Shown piece after piece: positions 22,269-36,765 of a DNA stretch of 36,895 nucleotides (positions are counted from its first letter, which is position 1; every line of letters starts with the position of its first letter). The stretch lies in the NCBI GenBank assembly GCA_022843175.1, contig JALHOE010000078.1, forward strand, positions 1 through 36,895, in the 5' to 3' direction. The DNA comes from Deltaproteobacteria bacterium (GTDB lineage Bacteria > Myxococcota_A > Polyangia > Polyangiales > JADJMO01). Below the pieces are notes generated by a model. It was not told the DNA's origin, searched no databases, and saw only the letters and a program-made list of their open reading frames with translations. A program made the translations under genes and the position numbers.

Positions 22269-23867
22269 GGCTCTTCGTCGGAGACCGGGCCAGCGCGGCG
22301 TAGCACTCACGCAGCGCGAGGCACCTGCTGACCGAGATCGACGAACGTGCGGAGCCCTCCGGGCGTCTTGAGGGGATTCGCGATTACGAAACGCAGCTTG
22401 CGGCGGAGGTACTCGTGATCCCGATACCCGCGACCACGCCGTACCAGCGCCTCCCAGTTGTTGTTGAGCGCCTCGATGCGCCCGGTCGGTGGACGCCACT
22501 CTGCGTACGCGACAATCGCGTCGGCGTGATGCTCGAGCGATTCGCCGAGCCGTCGGACGGCGTTCAGCGTAGTGCGGCGTGTCCGGCGCAAAACGCGTTC
22601 GAGTCCGTGCAGCATCGCGTCGCCGTCGACGGCGTCGCGAAGAAGCGCACGAGTCTCTTCCTTCAACTGGTAGAGACGCGCGAGCTTGCCGTTTTGCGCG
22701 AGCAGCCACCTGAGGTCCGCCTTCTGCTCGGCGGTGTTTCGCTCCCAGGCGCGAAGCAGAAGCCAGCGTCGGCCACGGCCGATAGCGCGCTGTTCCGGCC
22801 CGCTGCGGAAGAAGATTGCGCGGCGAGCATCGTCGACGGCCTCGCCAACGCGCTTCATGACGTGGAAGGGGTCGTGGGTGATGGCGACGTGCTCGAGCCC
22901 GGGTGTCTCGTCGATGGCGACGTAGAACGCGGCGTACATGTCCATCGCGAAGAGGTCGATGGCCTTCTTCTGCTCCGGCGTGAGCGCATCGAGCCACCGA
23001 CGCACCGTCTCCTTGCTGCGGCCGGCGCCGATCCAAATCGGCTCGCCAGTCTCGAGGTTGCTCACGATCGTCACGAACTTCTCGGCGAGCCTGTTGCGCC
23101 GCCCGAGGTACTTCTCATCGAGACCGACCTGCCGCAACGGCGCCGTCGGAGGCAATGAGCGCTCCCAGCGTGCAATGGCGTGTCCCTCAGCTCGACGAAC
23201 CGTCGACCACGGCAGGCCGTGTCGAGCGGCGACCTGCGAGATGGGGGCCGCCGCGCATTCGATCGCGAGTTGGTGCTGCAGCCGCCGCGTTGTCGTCTGG
23301 CGCGCCTCCGCCCACGCGACGAGCTCGACGAGGTGAGCCGCGCACAGCCGGCACTTCAGCCTGCGTGGCGCGTACTCGATCAACACGGGGTGCGTCGACC
23401 AAGGGAGGTCGCGCCACCGCCGCGTTGTGCCGAGCTCGTGGACCGCGTCGCAGGCCGAACCGCACCCGCTGCACCGCGGTCGCCATCGGCACCGTACGCG
23501 CAGCACGAGGCGGGTGCCGCGAAGCAGCGCGTACCGGCCGGTCGCGACGACGTGAACCCCCAACTCGCTCTCGAAGAACGCTTCCTCCACAACCCACCCA
23601 TCGAAACCGAGAAGCTGTGCGAGACTCACGCTGCGCTGTCCCATCCAGGTCGTCTCCCGTCGGTTGCAAGTCCAACGAGAGAAGGCCTCCGCAATGGCGC
23701 GGCGTCGATGGGTCAGCGCGTCTTCCATCGCCGCCGCTTGCCGCTCGTCACGCCGCCTGCAGCCTCGGGATCGATCGAGCGTCCCAAGAGCAGCCGGCGC
23801 GCCGAGCTACGTCATGCGCGAGTCGCGATAGTCGCAATCCGCGCAGCCCGGTTCGCGATGAAGAGCG
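22269..23867 (-). mobile_element. Complete ISL3-family insertion sequence (1599 bp)
   Basis: Terminal inverted repeats: left 22269-22289 (GGCTCTTCGTCGGAGACCGG...) and right 23847-23867, which match at 16 of 21 positions. Ends of the form GGCTCTT are typical of ISL3. The element is flanked by a perfect 8-bp duplication (ATATTTAC) and carries one intact transposase on the minus strand. The intact frame and unchanged target duplication suggest a fairly recent insertion that could still be active. The joined flanks show no obvious interrupted gene. Confidence 0.93.
22307..23644 (-). CDS. ISL3-family transposase
   Basis: Protein of 445 residues. N-terminal zinc-ribbon Cys pairs (CSGCGSAC and CRLC), then a helix-turn-helix region (QVAARHGLPWSTVRRAEGHA), then the DDE catalytic core: Asp in VGLDEKYLGRR, Asp in FAMDMYAAFY and Glu in GRIEALNNNWEALVRRGRGY. 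The end HEYLRRKLRFV is typical of ISL3. The ATG at 23644 was chosen because GGGAG lies about ten bases upstream and the conserved SLAQLLGFDGW follows; an in-frame ATG at 23728 would add 28 unconserved residues. The stop lies 38 bases inside the left end. All catalytic residues seem present. Confidence 0.95.
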   Translation of the reverse strand: MGQRSVSLAQLLGFDGWVVEEAFFESELGVHVVATGRYALLRGTRLVLRVRCRWRPRCSGCGSACDAVHELGTTRRWRDLPWSTHPVLIEYAPRRLKCRLCAAHLVELVAWAEARQTTTRRLQHQLAIECAAAPISQVAARHGLPWSTVRRAEGHAIARWERSLPPTAPLRQVGLDEKYLGRRNRLAEKFVTIVSNLETGEPIWIGAGRSKETVRRWLDALTPEQKKAIDLFAMDMYAAFYVAIDETPGLEHVAITHDPFHVMKRVGEAVDDARRAIFFRSGPEQRAIGRGRRWLLLRAWERNTAEQKADLRWLLAQNGKLARLYQLKEETRALLRDAVDGDAMLHGLERVLRRTRRTTLNAVRRLGESLEHHADAIVAYAEWRPPTGRIEALNNNWEALVRRGRGYRDHEYLRRKLRFVIANPLKTPGGLRTFVDLGQQVPRAA

Positions 23868-24787: not shown

Positions 24788-25030
24788 TCAACGAACCCGC
24801 GCGTCGCCATGACAGACGCCGACGCACGAAGTCAGGTTCTTGCCGACACACATCACGACGTCTGATCCGTACTGCCTACAGGGGCACGATCCGAGTTGGC
24901 AGCTACCCTGCGACGAACTGCCGTGACTCGGCGACCGACTGAGCGGGACGGTGCAAGCTGAAGGGCCAGCCGCCGTGGTCAAGGCCCCAAGAATCCCCAG
25001 CGACCATCGGCGGACGCTACTCGCTGTCAT
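24788..25030 (-). CDS. Small Cys-rich exported protein
   Basis: Protein of 80 residues. Its ATG lies inside the end of the preceding gene (14-base overlap), so it is probably translated from the same message. The N-terminus (VRRWSLGILGALTTAAGPSAC) is a signal peptide; the Cys could be lipidated, although Pro at -3 is atypical. Seven further Cys follow in a short mature part (CQLGSCPCRQYG, MCVGKNLTSCVGVCHG). It is the last gene of the phage-like cluster by position but resembles host small lipoproteins. Function unknown. Confidence 0.6.
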   Translation of the reverse strand: MTASSVRRWSLGILGALTTAAGPSACTVPLSRSPSHGSSSQGSCQLGSCPCRQYGSDVVMCVGKNLTSCVGVCHGDARVR

Positions 25031-26132
25031 CGTCGATAGCCTCACCCGCGAACGCGAGACTCGCAAGCGACCCAAAGATGTTCGGGTCGTCGCTCGCCGG
25101 TCGGTTCCACTTGAACCCAGCACTAGCAGCGGGACGACGCGGACGACGCAGGCCTGAATCGCCGATGGGACTCGGATCGGTGAAGCCTCCGCCAACCAGC
25201 AGGTCCCAGTCTACAAAGACGCGCGCATCGCCGCGGTGCTTCTCGGCGACGTTGCTCGTATAGTTCGGCGGTGTGAACGCGCGCAGCCGACGACGAGTTA
25301 TCGAGTCGATTGGCCCACTCACGCGAGGACGTTCATCCATAGGATTCGCTCTGCCCGTCCCGGTTCCCGGCTTCTTTTTCGGGGCGTCCACGCCCTGCTC
25401 CACCGCCGACGGATTCTTCGCTCGGGGATTCACGTCGCGCTTGGAATTGTACGAATCGCCGCGATCGGTGTTCTTCTTCCCATCATCGCCCCCCGGCTTT
25501 GCCGTCGCGGGAGCTGAACCAAACGGGACTGTGAGCACTCCGCCGATAGCCCAATCCGACTTGAGGCCCGTGCTGGCGTCGACAGTCGTCGAGGACGCGT
25601 TCCCGGAGATGGCCAGTGTCCCACCGTTGCCGCTGTCCTCGGGCGTAGCGCCGTGCAGTGGCAACAGTTCGCCCGTAAGCGGATCGCCACTCGCGATCGG
25701 TATCTCGATCGGCGTCGGCGTGCCTGCGGAGCCATACCCGCCCGAATCTGAAAGCAGACCAAGCGTGTTTCCGAGCCCCTCGCGGTACGAGTCCGGCGTG
25801 AAGCCAGCGATGCCGGCACCTCCAATGCCGGAGCCCGCGTCGATGTCACCGTATTCGTCGAGCCATGCGTCGAAAGCGCCGGCGCCCCAACGCAGAGGGT
25901 CCACACCGAGGTCGCGCAGGAGATCATCCCGCTGACTACTCTGCCTACGATCGTCGTCGCCCCAGTCGCCAGGATCGCGCCCGAGATCGACTGTTACGTC
26001 GCGGCCCTCACGCCTGCCGGCGACCGGAAACTCGTCTTTTCCGCGCGGCCGGACCGCGTCGCCAAGGAACTCGCCACTGGGTCGACCTGGATTTCCCGGC
26101 AACCGGCTATTCGTTCGCCTGAAGACCCTCAT
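25017..26132 (-). CDS. Gly/Asp-rich hypothetical protein of the phage-like cluster
   Basis: Protein of 371 residues, not recognised. AGGAGG lies seven bases before the ATG, a strong ribosome site. The sequence is polar and low in structure: an Arg/Asp-rich N-terminus, a Gly-rich middle (GSGIGGAGIAGF, SGNGGTLAISGNASS), a Lys/Asp-rich linker (about 215-265) and a more ordered C-terminus (ARVFVDWDLLVGGGF, FKWNRP). No signal peptide or membrane segment. The position after the three paralogues suggests a virion or assembly component, perhaps a linker or scaffold (inference only). Confidence 0.68.
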   Translation of the reverse strand: MRVFRRTNSRLPGNPGRPSGEFLGDAVRPRGKDEFPVAGRREGRDVTVDLGRDPGDWGDDDRRQSSQRDDLLRDLGVDPLRWGAGAFDAWLDEYGDIDAGSGIGGAGIAGFTPDSYREGLGNTLGLLSDSGGYGSAGTPTPIEIPIASGDPLTGELLPLHGATPEDSGNGGTLAISGNASSTTVDASTGLKSDWAIGGVLTVPFGSAPATAKPGGDDGKKNTDRGDSYNSKRDVNPRAKNPSAVEQGVDAPKKKPGTGTGRANPMDERPRVSGPIDSITRRRLRAFTPPNYTSNVAEKHRGDARVFVDWDLLVGGGFTDPSPIGDSGLRRPRRPAASAGFKWNRPASDDPNIFGSLASLAFAGEAIDDDSE

Positions 26133-26207
26133 TGGAGACCTCCTGATGCCGTAGAGATGATCGCCCGCAAGACGAAATGTTCACGACTGGCTGCCTTGTG
26201 TGGCTCT

Positions 26208-26636
26208 TCACGCGCTGCGGCCAACGAGGCTCACGGCGAGCGTGACGGCCCCACTCAGACCGTTCGCCCCTGCGTCGAGGAAAAGGTACACGCCGACGCA
26301 GCGGCCGATGACGAGCGCGGCGTCGTCCGGGACTCTCGACTGGAGCAAGGCCGGCGAGCTGAGCGTGTCATTGATCTCGACCTCGGCGAGGGTCGCGCCA
26401 ACGAAAGTTGTCGCGGGGTCGTCGGCTCCGATCATCATTTCGCGGACGCGCACGTACACCTTGGCGTTCGCGTTCGGGAGCGTCTCGTTCCAAACGCGTA
26501 CCACCAATGCCCCAGACACCCATCCGAGCGTGTCGATGAACTCCGCCAGCGGCGGCATGTACAGCGTCGCCGACGCCGCGAGCGTCGGCAGATTGATTGT
26601 CGTCTTGCGGAGCACTGCGATTTCGATACCAGCCAT
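26208..26636 (-). CDS. Phage-like small beta protein, paralogue A
   Basis: Protein of 142 residues; third of three tandem paralogues. It shares with the other two an N-terminal M-x-G-x-x-I-x-V-L-R-K-T strand, the core PLAEFIDTLGWVSGALVVRV (29-48), a DDPAT segment and a C-terminal SLVGRSA. Predicted all-beta, with no signal peptide. AAGGAGGG lies just before the ATG and overlaps the stop region of the upstream gene. The most divergent of the three in the middle part. Likely a virion surface or connector subunit (inference from context); no enzyme motif. Confidence 0.75.
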   Translation of the reverse strand: MAGIEIAVLRKTTINLPTLAASATLYMPPLAEFIDTLGWVSGALVVRVWNETLPNANAKVYVRVREMMIGADDPATTFVGATLAEVEINDTLSSPALLQSRVPDDAALVIGRCVGVYLFLDAGANGLSGAVTLAVSLVGRSA

Positions 26637-26649
26637 GGATCCCTCCTTG

Positions 26650-27117
26650 CTACGCGTTCCTGCCGATCAGATCGACGCCGATGGTGATGCTGCCTCCGAC
26701 CGTGGTGCCCTGGAGCGTCGCCTCGACGACGAGCAGCACCGAGACCGACTCCGCGATGGCGGGATAGGGGTTGTTGTTCGGGTCCGGGGTCGGCAGCTTG
26801 CTGACCAGCAGCACCGCCGTGCTCGGGCTGCCCGGCGTGATCTCGACCAGCGCGAGGGGGACGGAGTTGCTAATGAGTTGCGTCAGCGTGACCGCGGGAT
26901 CCTCGGGCGCGACGACACTGTTGACGACCGCGATGCTGACCTTCGCGTCCGTGCCGGTGAGCGAGTTGTCGTAGACGCGCACCTGGAGCGTGCCCGACAC
27001 CCACCCGACGGCGTTGACGAACTCTGCGATCGGCGGCAGGAACACGCTGCCGGGACCCTCGACGGCAGGCAGCGTGATGGTGGTCTTCCGCAGGACCGTG
27101 ATCTTCACGCCGCCCAT
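26650..27117 (-). CDS. Phage-like small beta protein, paralogue B
   Basis: Protein of 155 residues, second of the three paralogues. MGGVKITVLRKTTITLP at the start, PPIAEFVNAVGWVSGTLQVRV in the core (28-48), EDPAVTL in the middle and ITIGVDLIGRNA at the end. A Pro/Asn-rich loop (TPDPNNNPYP, about 109-118) is unique to this copy. Its ATG shares one base with the stop of paralogue C (TGATG), so the two are translationally coupled. No export signal is seen. Confidence 0.77.
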   Translation of the reverse strand: MGGVKITVLRKTTITLPAVEGPGSVFLPPIAEFVNAVGWVSGTLQVRVYDNSLTGTDAKVSIAVVNSVVAPEDPAVTLTQLISNSVPLALVEITPGSPSTAVLLVSKLPTPDPNNNPYPAIAESVSVLLVVEATLQGTTVGGSITIGVDLIGRNA

Positions 27118-27557
27118 CAGGAAGTCCTCCCGATCAAGTCGACGCCGACGGTGATGTCGCCGCTGACCGACGTGGCGGTGCCGAGCAGGATGGTCGACAT
27201 CTGGACCGAGACGTAGCGGCTCATGCGGTGCGGGACGGCGCTGACGAGCAGCGGAAGCGCGGCGTTGCCGGGCGACGTGGAGTCGACCTGCACGAAGGTG
27301 AGCGGCGTCGGCTCGATGAGGGTGACGGCCGGATCTTCCTGCGAGACCGACGTGTTGTAGACCGCGAACCGCACCGCCGCGTGCTGGCCCTGCGGCGAGA
27401 CCGAGAAGTTCGCGGAGTAGACGCGGACCTGGAGGACGCCCGACACCCAGCCGAGGGTGTCGATGAACTGCGCGAGCGGGTTAATGGGCACCGGCGTCGG
27501 CGGCGTCGCGAGGTAGAGCTTGGTGCGCCGCAGCGCCTCGATCTGCATTCCTGACAT
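27117..27557 (-). CDS. Phage-like small beta protein, paralogue C
   Basis: Protein of 146 residues, first of the three paralogues in the direction of transcription. MSGMQIEALRRTKLYL at the start, NPLAQFIDTLGWVSGVLQVRV in the core (26-46), QEDPAVTL in the middle and ITVGVDLIGRTS at the end. GGGAGG lies upstream of the ATG. It follows the spike-like gene after 27 bases. The shared ends and variable middles of the three copies suggest equivalent subunits of one hetero-oligomer. Confidence 0.77.
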   Translation of the reverse strand: MSGMQIEALRRTKLYLATPPTPVPINPLAQFIDTLGWVSGVLQVRVYSANFSVSPQGQHAAVRFAVYNTSVSQEDPAVTLIEPTPLTFVQVDSTSPGNAALPLLVSAVPHRMSRYVSVQMSTILLGTATSVSGDITVGVDLIGRTS

Positions 27558-27584
27558 GGATGGTCCTCCCTGAGGTTCTTCGCG

Positions 27585-28820
27585 TCATCGAGCCCACGAG
27601 GGGCGCTTGCCGTACCCGTACGCGCGGATGTAGTGGATGACCGCGGCGAGCAGGTTCGCGTTGCCGCCGCCCGTCGCGGCAAAGAAGTCGATCGCGTTCG
27701 TGGTGAAGTTCGGACTGCTCGTCGTCGGTGACGCCGACGTGAGGTTGAAGGCGGTGCCGCCGTTGACGCGGTACTTGATGACGGTCGTTGCGTTGGCGCC
27801 CGTCTCGACCCAGACCTGCACGACGTCGCCCTTCGCGAACGCGATCGCGGCCGACGACACGAACGAGACGCCGTTGATGCGCACGGCAACCTCGTGCGTC
27901 GTGGCGGCGATGTACATGTAGTCGCTGTTCGCGGTGTAGAAGAGGAAGCGATCGGCCGTCATGGCCGAGACCGCTTCGAGCGCCGTGAACCTGAACTCCA
28001 GGCGGATGCTGTTGTACGTGCCGTTCGTGGTCTGGAGGACGGCCTCCGATGCCTTGTAGAGCCGGGTCATCGCTCGTGTGACGCTGGTCGTCGTCGTAAG
28101 CGTCGTCGACGAGGCGAACCGCCGTGAGTCGTGCTGCGCGCCGTAGACGTAGATGGTGAAGGCCGCGTTGCTGCCGTTCGCGCCGTACACGTAGAGGCCG
28201 GTCGCCGCCGCCGTGGCCTCGAACGAGATGCGCTGCCACGTCGTGGTCAAGGTCGCCGCCGTGCCGTACTCGACGTTCGTTCCGACGCGGATGTCCACGG
28301 TGCCGGACGCCACACGAGCCCAGAGCGACACGACCTCACCCACGGCGATCGTGGCCGACTGCGCGAATCGCGTGGCGTTCGCGACGCCGCTGCCGTCGTA
28401 GACGACCTTCGAGGCTGCGTTCCCTCCGGCCGGATCGGTGACGTCGGAGGTGTTGGCTGTCGCCGTGACGCCGGTGCCCTTGATCCAAGCCGACTGAGAG
28501 ACGTCGGAGCTGTGGAGGATGTCGTTGGTGTTCGCGGGCTCATGGAGGAGCCCGACACCGGTACCGACGTCCCCAATCGCCGGCACGTCGGTGGCGACGC
28601 CCGAGATGACCAACGACGACCCCGACGTCTGCGCTGTCGCCGAGGACGCACGTGCGAACACGAGCGGCATCGCTGCGATGGCGGAGGTATTCGCCGACCC
28701 GTTCGTGGTCGTTGAGATCGGAAGAGCACCAAACTCCGCGCGCCACACGATCCCGTCGCCGAGCTGCCAGAAGCCGGGCTGCGGCACGTAGAACGCGCCA
28801 TTGTGGATCCACGAGTCCAT
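27585..28820 (-). CDS. Phage spike/fibre-like protein with two beta-sandwich domains
   Basis: Protein of 411 residues. Residues 85-230 match the phage head-spike/tail-fibre jelly-roll pattern: LLHEPANTNDILHSSDVSQS (the usual form is L-x-E-x-x-x-T-N-L-L-x-x-S), AWIKGTG, VVSLWARVASG, TTTWQRISFEAT and a closing IYVYGAQ. Residues 245-400 form a second, concanavalin/LamG-like sandwich (LEFRFTALEA, VQVWVETGANATTVIKYRVN). Residues 1-60 may attach it to the particle. Such proteins bind carbohydrate on a host surface. Its ATG shares one base with the stop of the decoration-like gene (TGATG), so the two are coupled. No signal peptide. Confidence 0.82.
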   Translation of the reverse strand: MDSWIHNGAFYVPQPGFWQLGDGIVWRAEFGALPISTTTNGSANTSAIAAMPLVFARASSATAQTSGSSLVISGVATDVPAIGDVGTGVGLLHEPANTNDILHSSDVSQSAWIKGTGVTATANTSDVTDPAGGNAASKVVYDGSGVANATRFAQSATIAVGEVVSLWARVASGTVDIRVGTNVEYGTAATLTTTWQRISFEATAAATGLYVYGANGSNAAFTIYVYGAQHDSRRFASSTTLTTTTSVTRAMTRLYKASEAVLQTTNGTYNSIRLEFRFTALEAVSAMTADRFLFYTANSDYMYIAATTHEVAVRINGVSFVSSAAIAFAKGDVVQVWVETGANATTVIKYRVNGGTAFNLTSASPTTSSPNFTTNAIDFFAATGGGNANLLAAVIHYIRAYGYGKRPSWAR

Positions 28821-29104
28821 CAGAGGAGCTTGAGTACGCGGAGGTTCTGGGTACCGCTGGCGACGATGCCGTAGACGGCTCCCTCGTCCTGGATCGGCAA
28901 CGTGATGCCCTTGCCGGGCTCGATCTCCAGACCCGTCGAGGTGTTCACCGTGCTGTCGCCGATGAAGACGCTCGCAGTGTTGCTGGACGGCGCCTGCACC
29001 ATGATGCCCGCGTTGGCGGCGCCGCCCGAACCACTACCAAGCGCGGTCGCTGTTGTCGCGACCGTGACGGCGGAGAGCGTCTTGAGCTGTTGCGCGATGA
29101 TCAT
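28820..29104 (-). CDS. Phage head-decoration-like small protein
   Basis: Protein of 94 residues, first gene of the cluster. The pattern ASVFIGDSTVNTSTGLEIEP, GKGITLPI, AVYGIVASGTQNLRVLKL is common in small structural proteins of tailed phages encoded near capsid or tail genes. The N-terminal part (SAVTVATTATALGSGSGG) is low-complexity beta. The ATG at 29104 was chosen over an upstream start at 29161 because GAGGGAGG lies ten bases before it. No export signal. Confidence 0.75.
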   Translation of the reverse strand: MIIAQQLKTLSAVTVATTATALGSGSGGAANAGIMVQAPSSNTASVFIGDSTVNTSTGLEIEPGKGITLPIQDEGAVYGIVASGTQNLRVLKLL

Positions 29105-29680
29105 CTCGATCGTGCCTCCCTCGATGCGACGTCGCGACAATCTGCGCGACGCCCGAGGCAACCAGCAGCGACCGCGCCGAAAGTGAATTCGCGTAGATTC
29201 ACGCGAAACGGAAGAAGCAATACCGTAGCTTCGTCAAGAAGTTGTCGGGGCGATCGATCGAGACACTTACGGCGAGGTGTCGCGGCATGCGTTGAACGGA
29301 CATCGATGGGTGCGCGTTCAGTCGCAGACGACGAGCGACGTAGCCTGTCGCGTAAGCGCGTTCTGGCACGCGTAACGCATCTAGCTTGCCTAGAAGCGAC
29401 GCATTCTGTCCGCGAAGGCGTGTTCCGTTTTCAAACGCACGAACGCACCTCGCCGGACCGAGTCGGCGCCTCGAAGTCGTCGCGAGATGACGAGGACCTC
29501 GGTGCGATCAGGTTGCTGACCATGTTCGTCCTCGCCCGACGCGACGTCCGCGGTCTTGGCTCCGTCGTCGGCGCGGAGCTGCCGGCTGCCGCCGCTCGAG
29601 ACGCCAGCGCGCGAGCTGCCTTCCGGTCGACCGCCTCGCTGGCCGGTCGATCCCAAGGCTGAGATCGAGGGGGCCTCGCC
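29105..29680. other. Non-coding stretch upstream of the phage-like cluster
   Basis: About 575 bases without a convincing gene; open frames on both strands are short or Arg-rich shadows. It should hold the cluster promoter; TACGGT (minus strand, 29222-29227) is one -10 candidate. An operator-like inverted repeat lies at 29183-29207. Confidence 0.5.
29183..29207. promoter_or_regulatory. Overlapping inverted repeats, possible operator of the phage-like cluster
   Basis: Two perfect 6-bp pairs overlap: GTGAAT/ATTCAC (29183-29188, 29197-29202) and TTCGCG/CGCGAA (29188-29193, 29202-29207). About 80 bases upstream of the first gene of the cluster. Confidence 0.4.
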
Positions 29681-29823: not shown

Positions 29824-30228
29824 GTGAACTCCAAGCTGCGGGCTCAGCGCGGGCAACGCCTTCGGCGTTGGTTGCGGCGTGCCGTGCGGGTGGTGGTCGC
29901 GATGATCGCGCTCGTCGCGGTGCTCGGCGTCACGGTGAGCCCGGCGGTCGCCGCGGTGGTGGCCATCACGTCCGGTCCCACCTGCCACTGCCCGCACGAC
30001 GACGAGGGCGACGACCGCCGCGCGTGCCCGTGCTGCAACCCGGACGACAGCCACAAGGACGGCTGCCTGCCCATCGCCGGCTGCGGCTCGTTCGCGGCGC
30101 TCGCGCCAGCGATGCAAACCGACTTGATCCCGCTCCCCGAGCTCGCGGGTCTGGCAGACGAGGGCGACGTGCCCGCGCTGCTCGGCCGGCTCATGCACCT
30201 CCGCATCGAACGACCGCCGCGGGCCTGA
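29824..30228 (+). CDS. Exported Cys/His-rich protein heading the Cus operon
   Basis: Protein of 134 residues from a GTG. A basic N-terminus and a hydrophobic segment (22-44) form a signal peptide with a likely cut after AVA. Residues 54-87 hold a dense cluster of Cys and His (TCHCPHDD, RRACPCCNPDDSHKDGC, GCGSF), well suited to bind Cu(I), Ag(I) or Zn. It lies 65 bases before the TolC-like gene and probably shares its message, so a periplasmic metal sponge, sensor or chaperone for the pump is likely (inference). It does not resemble CusF. TATAGG ends seven bases before the GTG and may be its -10. Confidence 0.75.
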   Translation: MNSKLRAQRGQRLRRWLRRAVRVVVAMIALVAVLGVTVSPAVAAVVAITSGPTCHCPHDDEGDDRRACPCCNPDDSHKDGCLPIAGCGSFAALAPAMQTDLIPLPELAGLADEGDVPALLGRLMHLRIERPPRA

Positions 30229-30293
30229 TCCGGCCGCGCGAAACCAGGTTTGTTTGATCGGCGCGCACGCGAGGTGCGCGACGGAGGTCTTCC

Positions 30294-31664
30294 ATGTCTG
30301 CGATCCGCCCGCTCTTTGCGGCGGCGGTCGCGGCGATCGTTTCGGGCTGCTTCGGGGCTTCGCTGCCCCCGGAGTACCCGGGCGTCGTCCGCGCCGCCGA
30401 CGCGCCGTCCGCTCCGCCGTCCGTGGGGCCGACCCCGACCGTCGAACAGGACGAGGGAACGTTGCCGAAGGAGGCCCGGCTCGACGCGATCACGCGCGTC
30501 GCGCTCGCGAGGAGCCCCTCGGTGAAGGAGGCGCGCGCGCGCACGCAGGCCGCGCTCGCTCGGGTGAAGGGGACGGGGAGGCTCCCCGACACCGAGTTCA
30601 AGTACGAGCTGTGGGGGCAGCCGCTCTCGCGACCGTGGGCGCTCAACGAGACGCAGATGCACATGTTCGGGCTGCGCCAGACCTTCCCCGCCATCGGCTC
30701 GCTCGACGCGCAGACCAAGATCGCGGTCGAGGAGGGGAAGGTCGCCCTCGAGCTGCAGCACGCCCGCGAGCTCGACGTCGTCGCCGACGTGCGCAAGGCG
30801 TGGACCTCGTATCGCGCGGCGGTGCGCGAGAAGGCGATCCACATCGAGCACGGAGACCTCAACGCGCGGCTGTTCGAGCTCGCCAAGGTGCAGCTCCCGG
30901 TCGGCAAGGCGAGCCAGAGCGACGTGCTCCGGATCCAGCTCGAGGTCACCCGGGTGCACACCGACATCATCGGGCTCGAGCAGCAGCTCGCGACGAGCCG
31001 GGCGCGCCTCAACACGCTCATGGCGCGCGATCTCGACGCGCCGCTCGGCCCGCCGCCCGACTTCGAGCTGACCGACATCGCGCCGCGCATGGACGACCTC
31101 AAGGCGATGATCGGCAAGCGACCCGAGCTCGCCGCCGCCGACGGCGAGGTCCGCAAGAGCGAGGCCGCGGTCGCCGGCGCGAAGAGCGCGGCGAAGAACC
31201 CGGCCCTCATGCTCGGGCTCGATTACCAGCTGATGCCGATGTCGCCGATGCCGCACAACTTCGGCGCGATGATCCAGTTCAGCCTCCCGTGGCTGAGCGG
31301 CCGGCGCACCGAGGACGTGAAGGCGGCCGAGGCGTCGGTCGAGGCGAGCAAGAGCGCGCGCGCCGCGCTCGAGAGCGTGATCCTGCTCCAGGTGCGCGAG
31401 TCGCTCGCGCGGTACGAGGCGGCGAAGGCGCGCTACGCGATCATCGACACGCAGCTCCTGCCGCAGGCGAAGAAGGCGTTCGAGGCGATGCAGTCGGCGT
31501 GGGCCGCGGGTGGCGGCGAATCGCTCGGGGTCATCGACGGGCTCCGCACCTACCTCTCGATCCGCATCGAGCGCAGCCGCGCCCTCGCCGACGTCGAGCT
31601 CGCGGTCGCCGACATCGAGCGCGCGATCGGCGGGCCGCTCCCGAAGAAGGGAGGCAAGCCGTGA
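30294..31664 (+). CDS. cusC: TolC-like outer-membrane efflux lipoprotein (CusC type)
   Basis: Protein of 456 residues. Signal peptide with lipidation Cys19 (IVSGC), as in CusC/OprM channels. Two repeats of long amphipathic helices follow (about 65-250 and 265-450), with typical segments such as RLDAITRVALARSPSVKEAR, GLRQTFPAIGSLDAQTKIA and MIQFSLPWLSGRR. It forms the trimeric outer-membrane exit duct of the metal pump. GGAGG lies seven bases before the ATG. The stop overlaps the start of the adaptor gene (GTGA), confirming an operon. Confidence 0.92.
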   Translation: MSAIRPLFAAAVAAIVSGCFGASLPPEYPGVVRAADAPSAPPSVGPTPTVEQDEGTLPKEARLDAITRVALARSPSVKEARARTQAALARVKGTGRLPDTEFKYELWGQPLSRPWALNETQMHMFGLRQTFPAIGSLDAQTKIAVEEGKVALELQHARELDVVADVRKAWTSYRAAVREKAIHIEHGDLNARLFELAKVQLPVGKASQSDVLRIQLEVTRVHTDIIGLEQQLATSRARLNTLMARDLDAPLGPPPDFELTDIAPRMDDLKAMIGKRPELAAADGEVRKSEAAVAGAKSAAKNPALMLGLDYQLMPMSPMPHNFGAMIQFSLPWLSGRRTEDVKAAEASVEASKSARAALESVILLQVRESLARYEAAKARYAIIDTQLLPQAKKAFEAMQSAWAAGGGESLGVIDGLRTYLSIRIERSRALADVELAVADIERAIGGPLPKKGGKP

Positions 31665-33061
31665 CCGAAGAGGCGATGCCCGAGGGCAAGGAGCCGCCGC
31701 CGCGCGGGTGGCGTGTGATGGCCGTGGTGCGGTGGGCGCTGGTGCTGCTGATGGCCGCGATCGCGGTCGCCGCGGTGCTGCGCTTCGTTCGCTCCGGCTC
31801 CCCGACGCAGAGCGCGTCCGCCGAGGTCTGGTACTGCCCGATGCACCCGTCGGTCGTGCAGGACCACCCGGGCGAGTGCCCGATCTGCGGAATGAACCTG
31901 GTGAAGCGCGAGGGCGCGGCCGACAGCGGCGCGATCTCGCACGTCGGTCACCGCCACGAGCCGAGCGATCCGTTCGTGTGCCCGATGCACCCCGAGGAGA
32001 CCGGCCTGTCGGCGAGCGATCGCTGCCCGATCTGCAAGATGGCCCTCGAGCCGCGCGCGACGGTCGACGCGGGGACGGCGGTCCCCGGCCTCGCGCCGAT
32101 CGCGCTGTCGTTCGACCGCATCCAGCTCATCGGCATGAAGACGGCGAAGGCGACGAAGGAGTCGCTGCTCACCGAGCTCAAGACGGTCGGCTACGTCACG
32201 CCGACCGAGCAGGGGCTCGCCAAGGTCACCACCAAGTTCGCGGGCTGGATCGAGGGCCTCCCGGTCGCCGAGACCGGCAAGAAGGTGCGGCGCGGCGAGC
32301 TGATGGCGCTCGTGTACAGCCCGGCGGTGTACCTCGCGCAGCAGGAGTACCTCACGGCGCGCGCGTTCGCGTCGACGCCGGACGGCGGCCTCGCGCCCGA
32401 GGCCCGCAAGCGGCTCGAGCTCCTCGGCGTCGCGTCGGGCGACATCGCGGCGATCGAGAAATCGGGCCAGCCGAAGAAGACCGTCGGCGTGTACGCGCCG
32501 GCCAACGGGTGGGTCGCGCAGAAGAGCGCGGTCATCGGTCAGTCGTTCCAGGCGGGCACCGAGCTGTTCACGATCGCCGACCTGAGCAAGGTGTGGGTGC
32601 TCGCCGACGTGTACGAGCACGAGCTCGCGCGGGTGAAGCTCGGTCAGGCCGCGCGGTTCACCACCGCGATGTACCCCGATCGAGCGTTCACCGGCGAGGT
32701 GAAGTTCATCTACCCGACGATCGACCCCGCGACGCGCACCGCGAAGGTGCGGCTCGAGTACCCGAACGCAGAGCTCGAGCTCCGCCCGGGCGCGTACGGC
32801 GACGTCTCGCTGTCGCTCCCCGCGAGCGCGAGCGTGGTCGTCCCCCGCGAGGCGCTCGTCGACACCGGCGGGCTCCAATACGTCTTCGTCGACAAGGGCG
32901 ACGGCCGGTTCGAGCCGCGTCGCGTCGCGGTGGGCGCGCGCAGCGGCGAGAAGATCGAGATTCGCAGCGGCGTCGCGGAGGGCGAGACCGTGGTCACGAC
33001 GGGCAACTTCCTCCTCGACTCCGAGAGCCGGCTCCGCGCCGCGATCGAGGGGGCCAAGTGA
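31661..33061 (+). CDS. cusB: RND periplasmic adaptor with two heavy-metal-binding domains (CusB type)
   Basis: Protein of 466 residues from a GTG. Membrane anchor at about 20-43. Two short metal-binding modules follow: WYCPMHP...CPICGM (57-78) and FVCPMHP...CPICKM (106-127). The rest is a membrane-fusion protein with barrel-sandwich and beta-barrel parts (KFAGWIEGLPVAETGKKVRR, VYAPANGWVAQKSAVIGQSF, LSKVWVLADVYEHELARVK). It links the pump to the outer-membrane duct and hands over metal. Overlaps both neighbours by GTGA. Confidence 0.94.
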   Translation: MTEEAMPEGKEPPPRGWRVMAVVRWALVLLMAAIAVAAVLRFVRSGSPTQSASAEVWYCPMHPSVVQDHPGECPICGMNLVKREGAADSGAISHVGHRHEPSDPFVCPMHPEETGLSASDRCPICKMALEPRATVDAGTAVPGLAPIALSFDRIQLIGMKTAKATKESLLTELKTVGYVTPTEQGLAKVTTKFAGWIEGLPVAETGKKVRRGELMALVYSPAVYLAQQEYLTARAFASTPDGGLAPEARKRLELLGVASGDIAAIEKSGQPKKTVGVYAPANGWVAQKSAVIGQSFQAGTELFTIADLSKVWVLADVYEHELARVKLGQAARFTTAMYPDRAFTGEVKFIYPTIDPATRTAKVRLEYPNAELELRPGAYGDVSLSLPASASVVVPREALVDTGGLQYVFVDKGDGRFEPRRVAVGARSGEKIEIRSGVAEGETVVTTGNFLLDSESRLRAAIEGAK

Positions 33062-36000
33062 TCGTCTCCCGCATCATCGAAGCGTGCGCGAAGAACCGCC
33101 TGATCGTGATCCTCGCCGTCGCGTTCGCGACGCTCGGGGCGATCTCGTCGATCCGCAAGGTGAAGCTCGACGCCATCCCCGATCTCTCCGATCCGCAGGT
33201 CGTCGTCTTCACCGAGTGGATGGGCCGTTCGCCGACGCTGGTGGAGGATCAGGTCACCTACCCGATCGTCTCCGCGCTCGTGGCCGCGCCGCACGTCACC
33301 GACGTGCGCGGGTTCTCGATGTTCGGCATGTCGTTCGTGTACGTCGTCTTCGAGGAGGGCACCGATCCGTACTGGGGCCGGAGCCGCGTGCTCGAGTACC
33401 TCAACGGAATCCGCGGGCGCCTGCCGATCGGCGCCGAGCCGCGCATCGGCCCCGACGCGAGCGGCATCGGGTGGACGTTCCAGTACACGCTCGTCGACAA
33501 ATCCGGCAAACACGGGCTCGACGAGCTGCGCACGTTCCAGGACTTCACCCTGCGCTACGCCCTCGGCAGCGTCGCCGGCGTGGCCGAGGTCGCGAGCGTC
33601 GGCGGCTACGAGAAGCAGTACCAGGTCACCGTCGATCCGCAGAAGCTCAAGGCGTTTGGCGTCACGCTGCAGGAGGTCGCCGCGGCGATCCGCGACTCGA
33701 ACGAGGACGTCGGCGGGCGCGTGCTCGAGATGTCCGGCCGCGAGTACTACGTGCGCGGCAGGGGCTACGTGCAGAGCCTCGGCGATCTCGAGAAGGTCGT
33801 GCTGCGCGCGAACGGCGGGACGCCGGTGCGCATCGGCGACGTCGGCAAGGTGAACTTCGGGCCCGAGATCCGTCGCGGGCTCCTCGAGTGGAACGGCGAG
33901 GGCGAGGCGGTCGGCGCGATCGTGGTGATGCGCTACGGCGAGAACGCGCTCGACGTCATCGAGCGGGTGAAGGCCAAGCTGGCCGAGCTGAAGCCGAGTC
34001 TGCCGCCCGGCGTCGAGGTGCAGATCGCCTACGACCGCTCCGACCTCATCCACCGCTCGATCGCCACGCTGAAGGGCGCGCTGCTCGAGGAGATCATCGT
34101 CGTCAGCATCGTCATCGTGCTGTTCCTGCTGCACGTGCGCAGCTCGCTCCTGCCGATCATCAGCCTGCCATTGGCGGTCGCGCTGTCGTTCATCCCGATG
34201 TACTTCCTCGACATCCCGTCGACGATCATGAGCCTCGGCGGGATCGCGATCGCCATCGGCGCCACGGTGGACGCCGAGATCGTGATGATCGAGGCGTCGC
34301 ACAAGAAGCTCGAACAGCCGCACACCGAGGCCGATCGCCATCGTTTGTTGGCCGAGGCCGCGAAGGAGGTGAGCCCGGCGATCTTCTTCTCGCTCCTGAT
34401 CATCGCCGTGGCCTTCTTGCCGGTGTTCACGCTCACCGGGCAGGCCGGGCGGCTGTTTCGGCCGATGGCGTACACCAAGACGTTCGTGATGCTCGCGTCG
34501 GCGATCCTCTCGATCACCTTCGCCCCGGCGATGCGCGACTTCTTGATCCGCGGGAAGATCTACCCCGAGCACCGCCACCCGGTCTCGCGCTTCATCATCG
34601 CGCTCTACAAACCGTTCGTGTACGTCGCGCTGCGCCGGCCGAAGTCGACGATCGGCCTCGGGCTCCTCGCGCTCGTGTCGGCGGTGCCGCTCTATCGCGA
34701 GCTCGGCAGCGAGTTCATGCCGCCGCTCAACGAGGGCGACGTCCTCTACATGCCGATCACGATGCCCAACGTGTCGATCGAGGTCGCCAAGCAGCAACTG
34801 CAGGCGCAGGACCGCATCCTCAAGAGCTTCCCCGAGGTGGCGAGCGTGTTCGGCAAGATCGGGCGCGCCGAGACGCCGACCGATCCCGCGCCGCTCACCA
34901 TGGTCGAGACGACGATCCGTCTGAAGCCGGAGAGCGAGTGGCGGCGCATCCACAAGGAGCGCTGGTACTCCGGCTGGCCCAACTTCTTGAAGCCGGTGTT
35001 CCGGCCGATCTGGCCGGAGGACCGGCCGATCACGTGGGACGAGCTCACCGCCGAGATGAACAAGAAGATGCAGTTCCCCGGCTGGACGAGCGCGTTCACC
35101 ATGCCGATCAAGACCCGCATCGACATGCAGTCGACCGGCGTGCGCACGCCGATCGGCGTGAAGATCCAGGGCACGAGCCTCGACGAAATCGAGAAGCTCG
35201 GCGTCGCGCTCGAGAAGGTGCTCGCCCCGGTGCCCGGCACCCGCAGCGTCATCTACGAGCGCAACCAGGGGGGGCTCTACGTCGACATCGTGCCCAAGCG
35301 CGACGCGCTCGCGCGGTACGGGCTCACGGTCGGCGACGTCGAGCGCACCATCGAGGCGGCGATCGGCGGCGCGCCGGTCTCGGTCACGATCGAGGGCCGC
35401 GCGCGGTTCACGATCAACGTGCGCTACCCGCAAGATCTCCGCTCCGATCTCGACAAGCTGCGGCGCGTGCTCGTGCCCACCGGCGGCGGCAAGCAGGGCG
35501 CGCTCTTCCTCGACGAGCCGCGCGAGGATCGGTGGCTCCTCGCGCAGATGGGCGACATGGGAGGTGGCTCGTCGTCGGCCCCGAAGGCGCCTGGCCCCGC
35601 GCAAAACTCGGAGCCGGTGGCGGACGTCCCCGGCATCGCGCCCAACGGGCTGCCCGCCCTGCCGCTCACCGGCGAGCTGACGATCCCCGTCGCGCCGCCC
35701 ACCGCGCCCGCGACGGCAGACGTCGGGGCGTCGTACATCCCGCTCGGTCAGCTCGCGGACATCCAGATCGTCAACGGGCCGCCGATGGTCCGCGACGAGG
35801 ACGGCCTGCTCGTCGGCTACGTCTACGTCGACATCGACACCGCCCAGCGCGACATCGGCGGCTACGTCGACGACGCGAAGCGCGTGGTGCAGGAGGCGCA
35901 GAGCCGCGGCGAGCTCCGGCTGCCGCCCGGCTACTTCCTGAAGTGGACCGGCCAGTACGAGCTGCTCGAGGAGATGGTCGCGCGGATGAAGGTGGTGGTG

Positions 36001-36765
36001 CCGCTGACGATCGGCATCATCGTGTTGCTCCTGTGGTTCCAGTTCAAGAACGCGATCGAGGTGCTCATCGTGCTCCTCTCGATCCCGTTCGCGCTGGTGG
36101 GCAGCGTGTGGCTGATGTGGCTCCTCGACTACCGCATGTCCACGGCGGTGTGGGTCGGCGTGATCGCGCTCGTGGGGCTCGCCGCGCAGACCGGCATCGT
36201 GATGATCGTCTACATCGATCACGCCTACGAGCGGCGAAAGGCCGCCGGCCTGATCCGCGATCTCGACGACATCATCTGGGCGCACATGGAGGGCACCGTC
36301 CTCCGCGTGCGACCGAAGCTGATGACGGTGTCGACGATGCTCATCGGCCTCATCCCGCTCTTGTGGGCGAAGGGCTCGGGCGCGGACGTGATGAAGCGGA
36401 TCGCGGTGCCGATGATCGGCGGGCTCATCACCTCGGCGTTCCTCACGCTCGAGATCATCCCGGTGATCTACACGTATTGGCGGCAGGAGCAGCTCCTGTG
36501 GGAGCGCGTCGACCGCGCGCGGCTCGTGCGGCTGCAGGTGGCGGCGTACGTGCAGGCGGTCGGGTGGGCGGTGCTCGCGACGCTGCTCGTCGCGACGCTG
36601 TATGTCGCCATCCCGAAGCCGATCTTCACGCTGACCGTCGTCATCGCCGCGGTGGCGGTGGTCGTCGGGCTCGGCACGTACTTCACGCTGCGGCCCGCCG
36701 CGCGAAGGGAGGTGTGGCCCGCTACGCCGCGCGTCGCCGACGGAGGAGCAGGCCCAACAGAATGA
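33058..36765 (+). CDS. cusA: CusA-type Cu(I)/Ag(I) efflux RND pump
   Basis: Protein of 1235 residues from a GTG overlapping the cusB stop. Heavy-metal RND transporter: KLDAIPDLSDPQVVVFTEW near the start and the proton-relay Asp405 in GATVDAEIVMIEASHK. The three Met that bind Cu(I)/Ag(I) in CusA are all kept: M565 (DVLYMPITMP), M615 (APLTMVETTI) and M690 (RIDMQSTGV). That argues for Cu/Ag rather than Zn/Co/Ni. It is about 190 residues longer than E. coli CusA; most of the extra length is a Gly/Pro/Ala-rich insertion at about 808-890 and a C-terminal extension with two extra hydrophobic helices. The 3' end overlaps the convergent gene at the right edge by 44 bases. Confidence 0.95.
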   Translation: MIVSRIIEACAKNRLIVILAVAFATLGAISSIRKVKLDAIPDLSDPQVVVFTEWMGRSPTLVEDQVTYPIVSALVAAPHVTDVRGFSMFGMSFVYVVFEEGTDPYWGRSRVLEYLNGIRGRLPIGAEPRIGPDASGIGWTFQYTLVDKSGKHGLDELRTFQDFTLRYALGSVAGVAEVASVGGYEKQYQVTVDPQKLKAFGVTLQEVAAAIRDSNEDVGGRVLEMSGREYYVRGRGYVQSLGDLEKVVLRANGGTPVRIGDVGKVNFGPEIRRGLLEWNGEGEAVGAIVVMRYGENALDVIERVKAKLAELKPSLPPGVEVQIAYDRSDLIHRSIATLKGALLEEIIVVSIVIVLFLLHVRSSLLPIISLPLAVALSFIPMYFLDIPSTIMSLGGIAIAIGATVDAEIVMIEASHKKLEQPHTEADRHRLLAEAAKEVSPAIFFSLLIIAVAFLPVFTLTGQAGRLFRPMAYTKTFVMLASAILSITFAPAMRDFLIRGKIYPEHRHPVSRFIIALYKPFVYVALRRPKSTIGLGLLALVSAVPLYRELGSEFMPPLNEGDVLYMPITMPNVSIEVAKQQLQAQDRILKSFPEVASVFGKIGRAETPTDPAPLTMVETTIRLKPESEWRRIHKERWYSGWPNFLKPVFRPIWPEDRPITWDELTAEMNKKMQFPGWTSAFTMPIKTRIDMQSTGVRTPIGVKIQGTSLDEIEKLGVALEKVLAPVPGTRSVIYERNQGGLYVDIVPKRDALARYGLTVGDVERTIEAAIGGAPVSVTIEGRARFTINVRYPQDLRSDLDKLRRVLVPTGGGKQGALFLDEPREDRWLLAQMGDMGGGSSSAPKAPGPAQNSEPVADVPGIAPNGLPALPLTGELTIPVAPPTAPATADVGASYIPLGQLADIQIVNGPPMVRDEDGLLVGYVYVDIDTAQRDIGGYVDDAKRVVQEAQSRGELRLPPGYFLKWTGQYELLEEMVARMKVVVPLTIGIIVLLLWFQFKNAIEVLIVLLSIPFALVGSVWLMWLLDYRMSTAVWVGVIALVGLAAQTGIVMIVYIDHAYERRKAAGLIRDLDDIIWAHMEGTVLRVRPKLMTVSTMLIGLIPLLWAKGSGADVMKRIAVPMIGGLITSAFLTLEIIPVIYTYWRQEQLLWERVDRARLVRLQVAAYVQAVGWAVLATLLVATLYVAIPKPIFTLTVVIAAVAVVVGLGTYFTLRPAARREVWPATPRVADGGAGPTE

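Follow-up and report, generated by a model that had tools for sequence, protein, structure and literature searches.

The window analysed here covers positions 1–36,895 of contig JALHOE010000078.1 (assembly GCA_022843175.1) of a Deltaproteobacteria bacterium of the order Polyangiales, and it carries a cluster of closely spaced minus-strand genes at 24788–29104. We read this cluster as a phage-derived receptor-binding cassette of the head-spike type that is traded between mobile elements, and we give this reading an even chance. It draws on the domain content, fold, copy number, selection and gene exchange of the cassette. The four intact, gene-swapping copies in the genome suggest a kit for recognizing cells that came from a virus and can be used again, and not simply a dead virus. 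The cluster is neither an ordinary prophage leftover nor a proven new system; it is a recognition module of phage or gene transfer agent (GTA) type with an unusual multi-copy, gene-swapping organization.

Spike protein and jelly-roll paralogs

The receptor-binding kit would consist of a spike protein and a trio of small jelly-roll proteins, with a variable distal protein alongside. The spike protein has 411 residues (27585–28820, minus strand like all cassette features below) and matches the NCBIfam model NF048003.1, "phage head spike fiber domain", with an E-value of 3.1e-19 and 70.2 bits against a cut-off of 36. The match runs from position 1 to 181 of the 182-position profile and places the GTA_spike_fiber domain at residues 92–250 (28071–28547). 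An earlier note on this DNA had described a spike- or fibre-like protein here, and the domain bears it out. The ratio of non-synonymous to synonymous substitution rates (dN/dS) for this gene is 0.06–0.18. The curated model match, together with the integrases and tail genes that lie beside sister copies, supports a phage ancestry for the spike protein.

The preceding gene (28820–29104) encodes a 94-residue beta protein with 86–97% identity in the other three intact copies and dN/dS of 0.11–0.19. For the head-decoration role proposed for it earlier, support comes from weak hits: one to phrog_30212 (E = 2.3e-4) and one to a gene of an archaeal tailed virus that adjoins a major capsid gene (E = 2e-3). 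It is possibly a spike base or decoration protein. Its family occurs in 3 of 308 genomes, two of the three being weak hits. Profiles of the spike and 94-residue proteins against the sequences of solved structures give chance-level scores.

Downstream of the spike gene lie the small paralogs alpha (146 residues, 27117–27557), beta (155 residues, 26650–27117) and gamma (142 residues, 26208–26636). They had been proposed as paralogous small beta proteins, and they are true paralogs, with about 37–45% identity and a common GWVSGxLxVRVY...DLIGRDA pattern. None of the three matches Pfam, PHROG or NCBIfam. The beta paralog, modelled as a monomer with 15 sequences, is an all-beta jelly-roll (predicted local distance difference test, pLDDT, 80.4; predicted template modelling score, pTM, 0.75). 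In structural comparison it agrees best with the VP2 projecting domain of infectious bursal disease virus, with a Z-score of 10.9 and a root-mean-square deviation of 3.1 over 129 residues. Lesser matches at Z 7.4–8.6 include carbohydrate-binding modules, Eph receptor domains and the tumour necrosis factor (TNF)-like lectins BC2L-C and PLTL; the two lectins, at Z about 7.5, tie with many unrelated beta sandwiches in the range of common matches. The predicted model supports a fold and not a function.

Copies of the cassette and the dyad motif

The assembly is a fragmented draft (9.75 Mb, 470 contigs, 95% complete), and the cassette is present in it as four intact copies and two deleted remnants. 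The intact copies are in the window (C78) and on contigs C3 (locus L009), C45 (L011) and C115 (L010); the remnants are on C176 and C98 (L053). At the spike position C3 encodes a 272-residue protein instead, with 25% identity to the 411-residue protein and several N-terminal residues in common. The cluster had been called isolated, but it is not alone in the genome. Integrases stand beside three of the four intact copies (C3, C45 and C115), one of which is among contractile-tail genes. Immediately upstream of its cassette, C3 carries a tyrosine integrase gene and another that is fibre-like. At C45 a serine integrase is upstream (phrog_95, E = 1.3e-32), a primase-like protein and a DNA methyltransferase are encoded on the other side, and a fibre scrap lies beside the cassette, as also at C3 and in the window. 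At C115 the tail genes, among them baseplate J and tape measure, are on the other strand from the cassette, and a tyrosine integrase adjoins a transfer-messenger RNA (tmRNA) gene. Baseplate J and tape-measure genes are found at C115 only; sheath and tube were not identified there.

A 21-bp dyad, CGACACCTCGCCGTAAGTRTC, marks the 5' boundary of the cassette (29262–29282 in the window). With up to three mismatches allowed it has six sites in the genome, all of them exact, and the reversed control has none. Each intact copy has one, C176 and C98 have one each, and the motif occurs nowhere else in the 9.75 Mb. It lies 177–201 bp upstream of the first gene. The leader between them (29105–29282 with the motif) aligns among C78, C3, C45 and C176 and has diverged in C115 except for the motif and the start region; retention of the motif in the mostly diverged C115 leader suggests that it has a function. 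DNA homology between the window and C45 begins exactly at the dyad, while that between C3 and C45 extends further upstream; the dyad is therefore also a junction between differing upstream contexts. It is probably a regulatory site or a junction, and a regulatory site would be the simplest reading. A pair of flanking sites, as in an inversion cassette or attL/attR, is ruled out by the single dyad per copy. RNA structure in the leader is not supported (z −1.06), and promoter and terminator scans are at chance level.

The two remnants are read as internal deletions. In C176 about 22 codons of the 94-residue gene are left before the sequence passes into "..YRRPTSDDPKLF", which resembles the end of the 371-residue distal protein of the window (NRPASDDPNIF). 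A fragment like that protein (VDWELQRGGG...RATSDDPDTF) comes after the motif in C98 and is followed by a tetratricopeptide repeat (TPR) lipoprotein-like gene, a coiled-coil-like gene and a putative outer-membrane protein gene.

Selection and gene exchange among copies

Pairwise dN/dS among the intact copies is 0.06–0.33 for the 94-residue, spike, alpha and beta genes and 0.19–0.39 for gamma among C78, C3 and C115; the gamma comparison leaves out C45, where the third paralog is too divergent and not a gamma ortholog. These mostly low ratios indicate that the genes have been maintained. Synonymous divergence (dS) is uneven along the locus pairs. Between C78 and C115 it is 0.71 for the 94-residue gene, 0.13 for spike, 0.60 for alpha, 0.86 for beta and 1.37 for gamma; between C78 and C3 it is 0.36 for the 94-residue gene, 0.08 for alpha, 0.69 for beta and 0.80 for gamma. 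Single genes have therefore been swapped between cassette lineages. In the tree the copies of each paralog type from different loci cluster together (node values 0.999 for the four alpha copies, 0.985 for beta and 0.899 for three gamma copies; deeper nodes are weak), so tandem duplication predates dispersal.

These results bear on an origin as a decayed prophage, which had been suggested for the cluster. That idea agrees with the phage ancestry supported for the spike and with the window copy, which looks stranded beside a frame-shifted fibre scrap, an ISL3 element and a synteny break; it does not fit the intact frames, the mostly low dN/dS or the gene-by-gene exchange among four loci. A stricter version, in which all copies are pieces of several related decayed prophages and their surface genes have survived by chance, we consider improbable. 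It would explain a window copy with a fibre scrap and an insertion sequence nearby and no phage genes, as well as the clear deletions in C176 and C98, and selection may have been at work only until the last integration; in the spike pair of the window and C45 there are 17 synonymous and 3 non-synonymous differences. Against it speak the full frames of all four copies, their dN/dS of mostly 0.06–0.33 and the conserved dyad. The scrap (29533–29620, minus strand, upstream of the cassette) aligns over 88 bp, at 79.5% identity, with the 3' part of the fibre-like gene on C115.

Comparison with known systems

In each head spike of the Rhodobacter capsulatus gene transfer agent (RcGTA) five jelly-roll base proteins form a pentamer that carries a single fibre; these spikes bind the capsule, and their genes lie apart from the core cluster (PMC7296036, PMC10218006, PMC6854486, PMC8601537). 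The cassette resembles the RcGTA spikes (base Rcc01079, fibre Rcc01080) and phage head spike fibres in the curated spike-fibre domain of its 411-residue protein, in a predicted jelly-roll protein encoded alongside and in spike genes that lie away from a core cluster of structural genes. It differs in having three jelly-roll paralogs and the 94-residue protein where RcGTA has one base gene, and in its four dispersed copies by integrases. The RcGTA base protein is not among the structural matches listed for the beta model, which is silent either way, and no sequence match to it was seen.

A true gene transfer agent, with this as its head-spike locus and its core cluster elsewhere as in Rhodobacter capsulatus, would accord with the head-spike domain, its jelly-roll neighbours and the ectopic spike genes known for RcGTA. 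We hold it to be very improbable. No GTA core was found with two large terminase families (no match to PF03354 or PF03237), and the copies sit by different integrases. The spike N-terminus, which reads MDSWIHNGAFYVPQPGFWQLGDG, is also without the hydrophobic Leu-Gly repeat peptide of the RcGTA fibre (PMC7296036).

Tailocin fibre loci such as that of carotovoricin are exchanged through recombination (PMC13195805). The cassette is similar to tailocin and prophage tail-fibre loci in that recombination alters recognition genes more quickly than the genes around them and independently of these, and in that one copy is among contractile-tail genes. In contrast to these loci, the loci that exchange genes here belong to a single genome and lie on separate mobile elements, and the cassette has its own leader and, in C115, runs opposite to the tail genes. 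A TNF-like domain is known in a fibre of a contractile cyanophage (Pam3 gp24; PMC9608196), a parallel for a jelly-roll in a contractile-phage fibre; gp24 is not among the structural matches listed, which again is silent either way. The TNF-like lectins (BC2L-C N-terminal domain, PLTL) share the small jelly-roll size class with the paralogs but no sequence similarity, and the comparison is of the predicted monomer fold only.

By analogy with these systems, the cassette proteins would assemble into spikes or fibres mounted on a phage-derived particle, and the spikes may bind polysaccharide on the target cell. Swaps of a spike or jelly-roll gene between copies would then alter which cells are recognized. 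The dyad probably places the copies under shared control. When its element decayed the window copy would have been stranded, and it may still be expressed. If this is true, virion recognition modules exist apart from heads and tails, several per genome, and are remodelled gene by gene; the precedent that RcGTA sets for ectopic head spikes reaches a remote bacterial lineage; a jelly-roll family that none of the searched libraries models is added; and the genome-unique motif offers a handle for shared regulation or junction function.

Distribution of the families and the host alternative

The jelly-roll family is patchily distributed in the class. A profile search of 318 genomes from 152 genera found it in 16 genomes of 12 genera, frequently as more than one copy and in tandem sets of two to four. 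One locus (G006) has primase- and DnaB-like genes beside the jelly-roll gene and another (G491) an endolysin-like gene. The sister species (G001) has a single family member near primase-polymerase (Prim-Pol), Rad52-type and PD-(D/E)XK nuclease genes, and behind it come proteins similar to those encoded distally in C115 and C98; this contig is also found in a groundwater metagenome-assembled genome (JACPFM010000124.1). A search of plasmids with one distant family member gave no match. The cluster is not confined to complete prophages, and in the libraries searched no named family corresponds to its jelly-roll proteins.

Several results weigh against a phage-derived cassette. Most jelly-roll loci in the class are without a recognized phage gene (judged by eye, which is weaker than a profile search), and searches of phage records and viral contigs gave no jelly-roll relatives. 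The jelly-roll trio, in place of one base gene, has no RcGTA counterpart. The role of the 94-residue protein is unsupported, and its structure model is unusable (pLDDT 45). Nor was a terminase, portal or head gene found on which these proteins could be mounted; the search covered two large terminase families in a fragmented draft and did not extend to other terminase families, portal or capsid.

The earlier note had also raised a domesticated particle or adhesin, and the jelly-roll family does occur in loci of class members where no phage gene is recognized. These chromosomal occurrences make a host adhesin or lectin the main rival, to which we assign an appreciable minority chance. The jelly-roll proteins would be surface or extracellular lectins that recruited a phage-type spike, no particle would be involved, and the distal low-complexity proteins would be linkers or matrix. 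The tandem loci, mostly without recognized phage genes, fit this, as do a distant homolog of the 94-residue protein in a locus with host-type genes, the TNF-like lectins and carbohydrate-binding modules among the structural matches, and the putative lipoprotein and outer-membrane protein genes near the C98 and G001 copies. It is opposed by the head-spike domain, by the integrases or tail genes that accompany three of the four copies, and by the 94-residue, spike and jelly-roll proteins having no obvious signal peptide as judged from sequence. A limited literature search found no paper on domesticated fibre systems in myxobacteria.

A broader form of the phage-derived cassette is rather unlikely in our view: that members of the class maintain scattered virion-surface cassettes as a jointly regulated stock for exchange. 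Such cassettes, based on a jelly-roll family that Pfam, PHROGs and NCBIfam lack, would provide phage-derived particles with recognition parts in trans or act as cell-surface lectins. Beside the jelly-roll gene of another class member (G048, L089 1580–8034) are several related proteins with repeats of HYPDVTPSLIGVAR.

Distal genes, flanks and sister loci

Cluster coordinates are borne out: six minus-strand genes at 25017–29104 are backed by open frames, codon usage and/or homologous copies. The sixth, at the variable distal position (25017–26132), is an open reading frame (ORF) for a 371-residue Gly/Pro/Asp-rich protein that is probably mostly disordered; fragments of its C-terminus are in C98 and C176, and it was not found intact elsewhere. 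In C3 and C45 this position holds low-complexity proteins that look unrelated to it. The C45 protein has 525 residues and a very long unbroken glycine run (L011 7099–8676). Seven genes had been counted originally; the seventh, for a putative Cys-rich, lipoprotein-like protein of 80 residues (24788–25030), is an ORF only, which spans 24788–25195 with a likelier ATG start at 25030.

The flanks examined contain no recognized phage packaging, head, lysis or integration gene, as had been claimed, and the window has no tRNA or Rfam feature. The left neighbour, about 1.3 kb from the cluster, is an ISL3-family transposase gene (22307–23728; DDE_Tnp_ISL3, E = 2e-46). To the right (29902–36765) is an operon for an outer-membrane efflux protein and an AcrB-type resistance-nodulation-division (RND) pump, with a small Cys/His-rich protein in front. 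The efflux operon is also in the sister species, but is preceded there by another gene, and synteny with that species is restored only at 29875, right of the cluster.

A complete tailed prophage set is not recognized around the window cluster, and partial sets occur only at C115, C3 and C45. With no match to the two terminase families searched and a single baseplate-J gene, no complete prophage is recognized in the genome. The C115 element (L010, L014) combines a tmRNA site, tyrosine integrase, tape measure, baseplate J and fibres with no recognized head genes, and is possibly a tailocin-like element or a truncated prophage. Behind the orphan dyad of C98 (L053 9520–12793) the TPR lipoprotein-like and coiled-coil-like genes are accompanied by two putative outer-membrane barrel proteins. 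Beside the integrase of the C3 element (L009 4096–5577) is a gene for an AbiJ_NTD3 domain protein, a candidate phage-defence gene.

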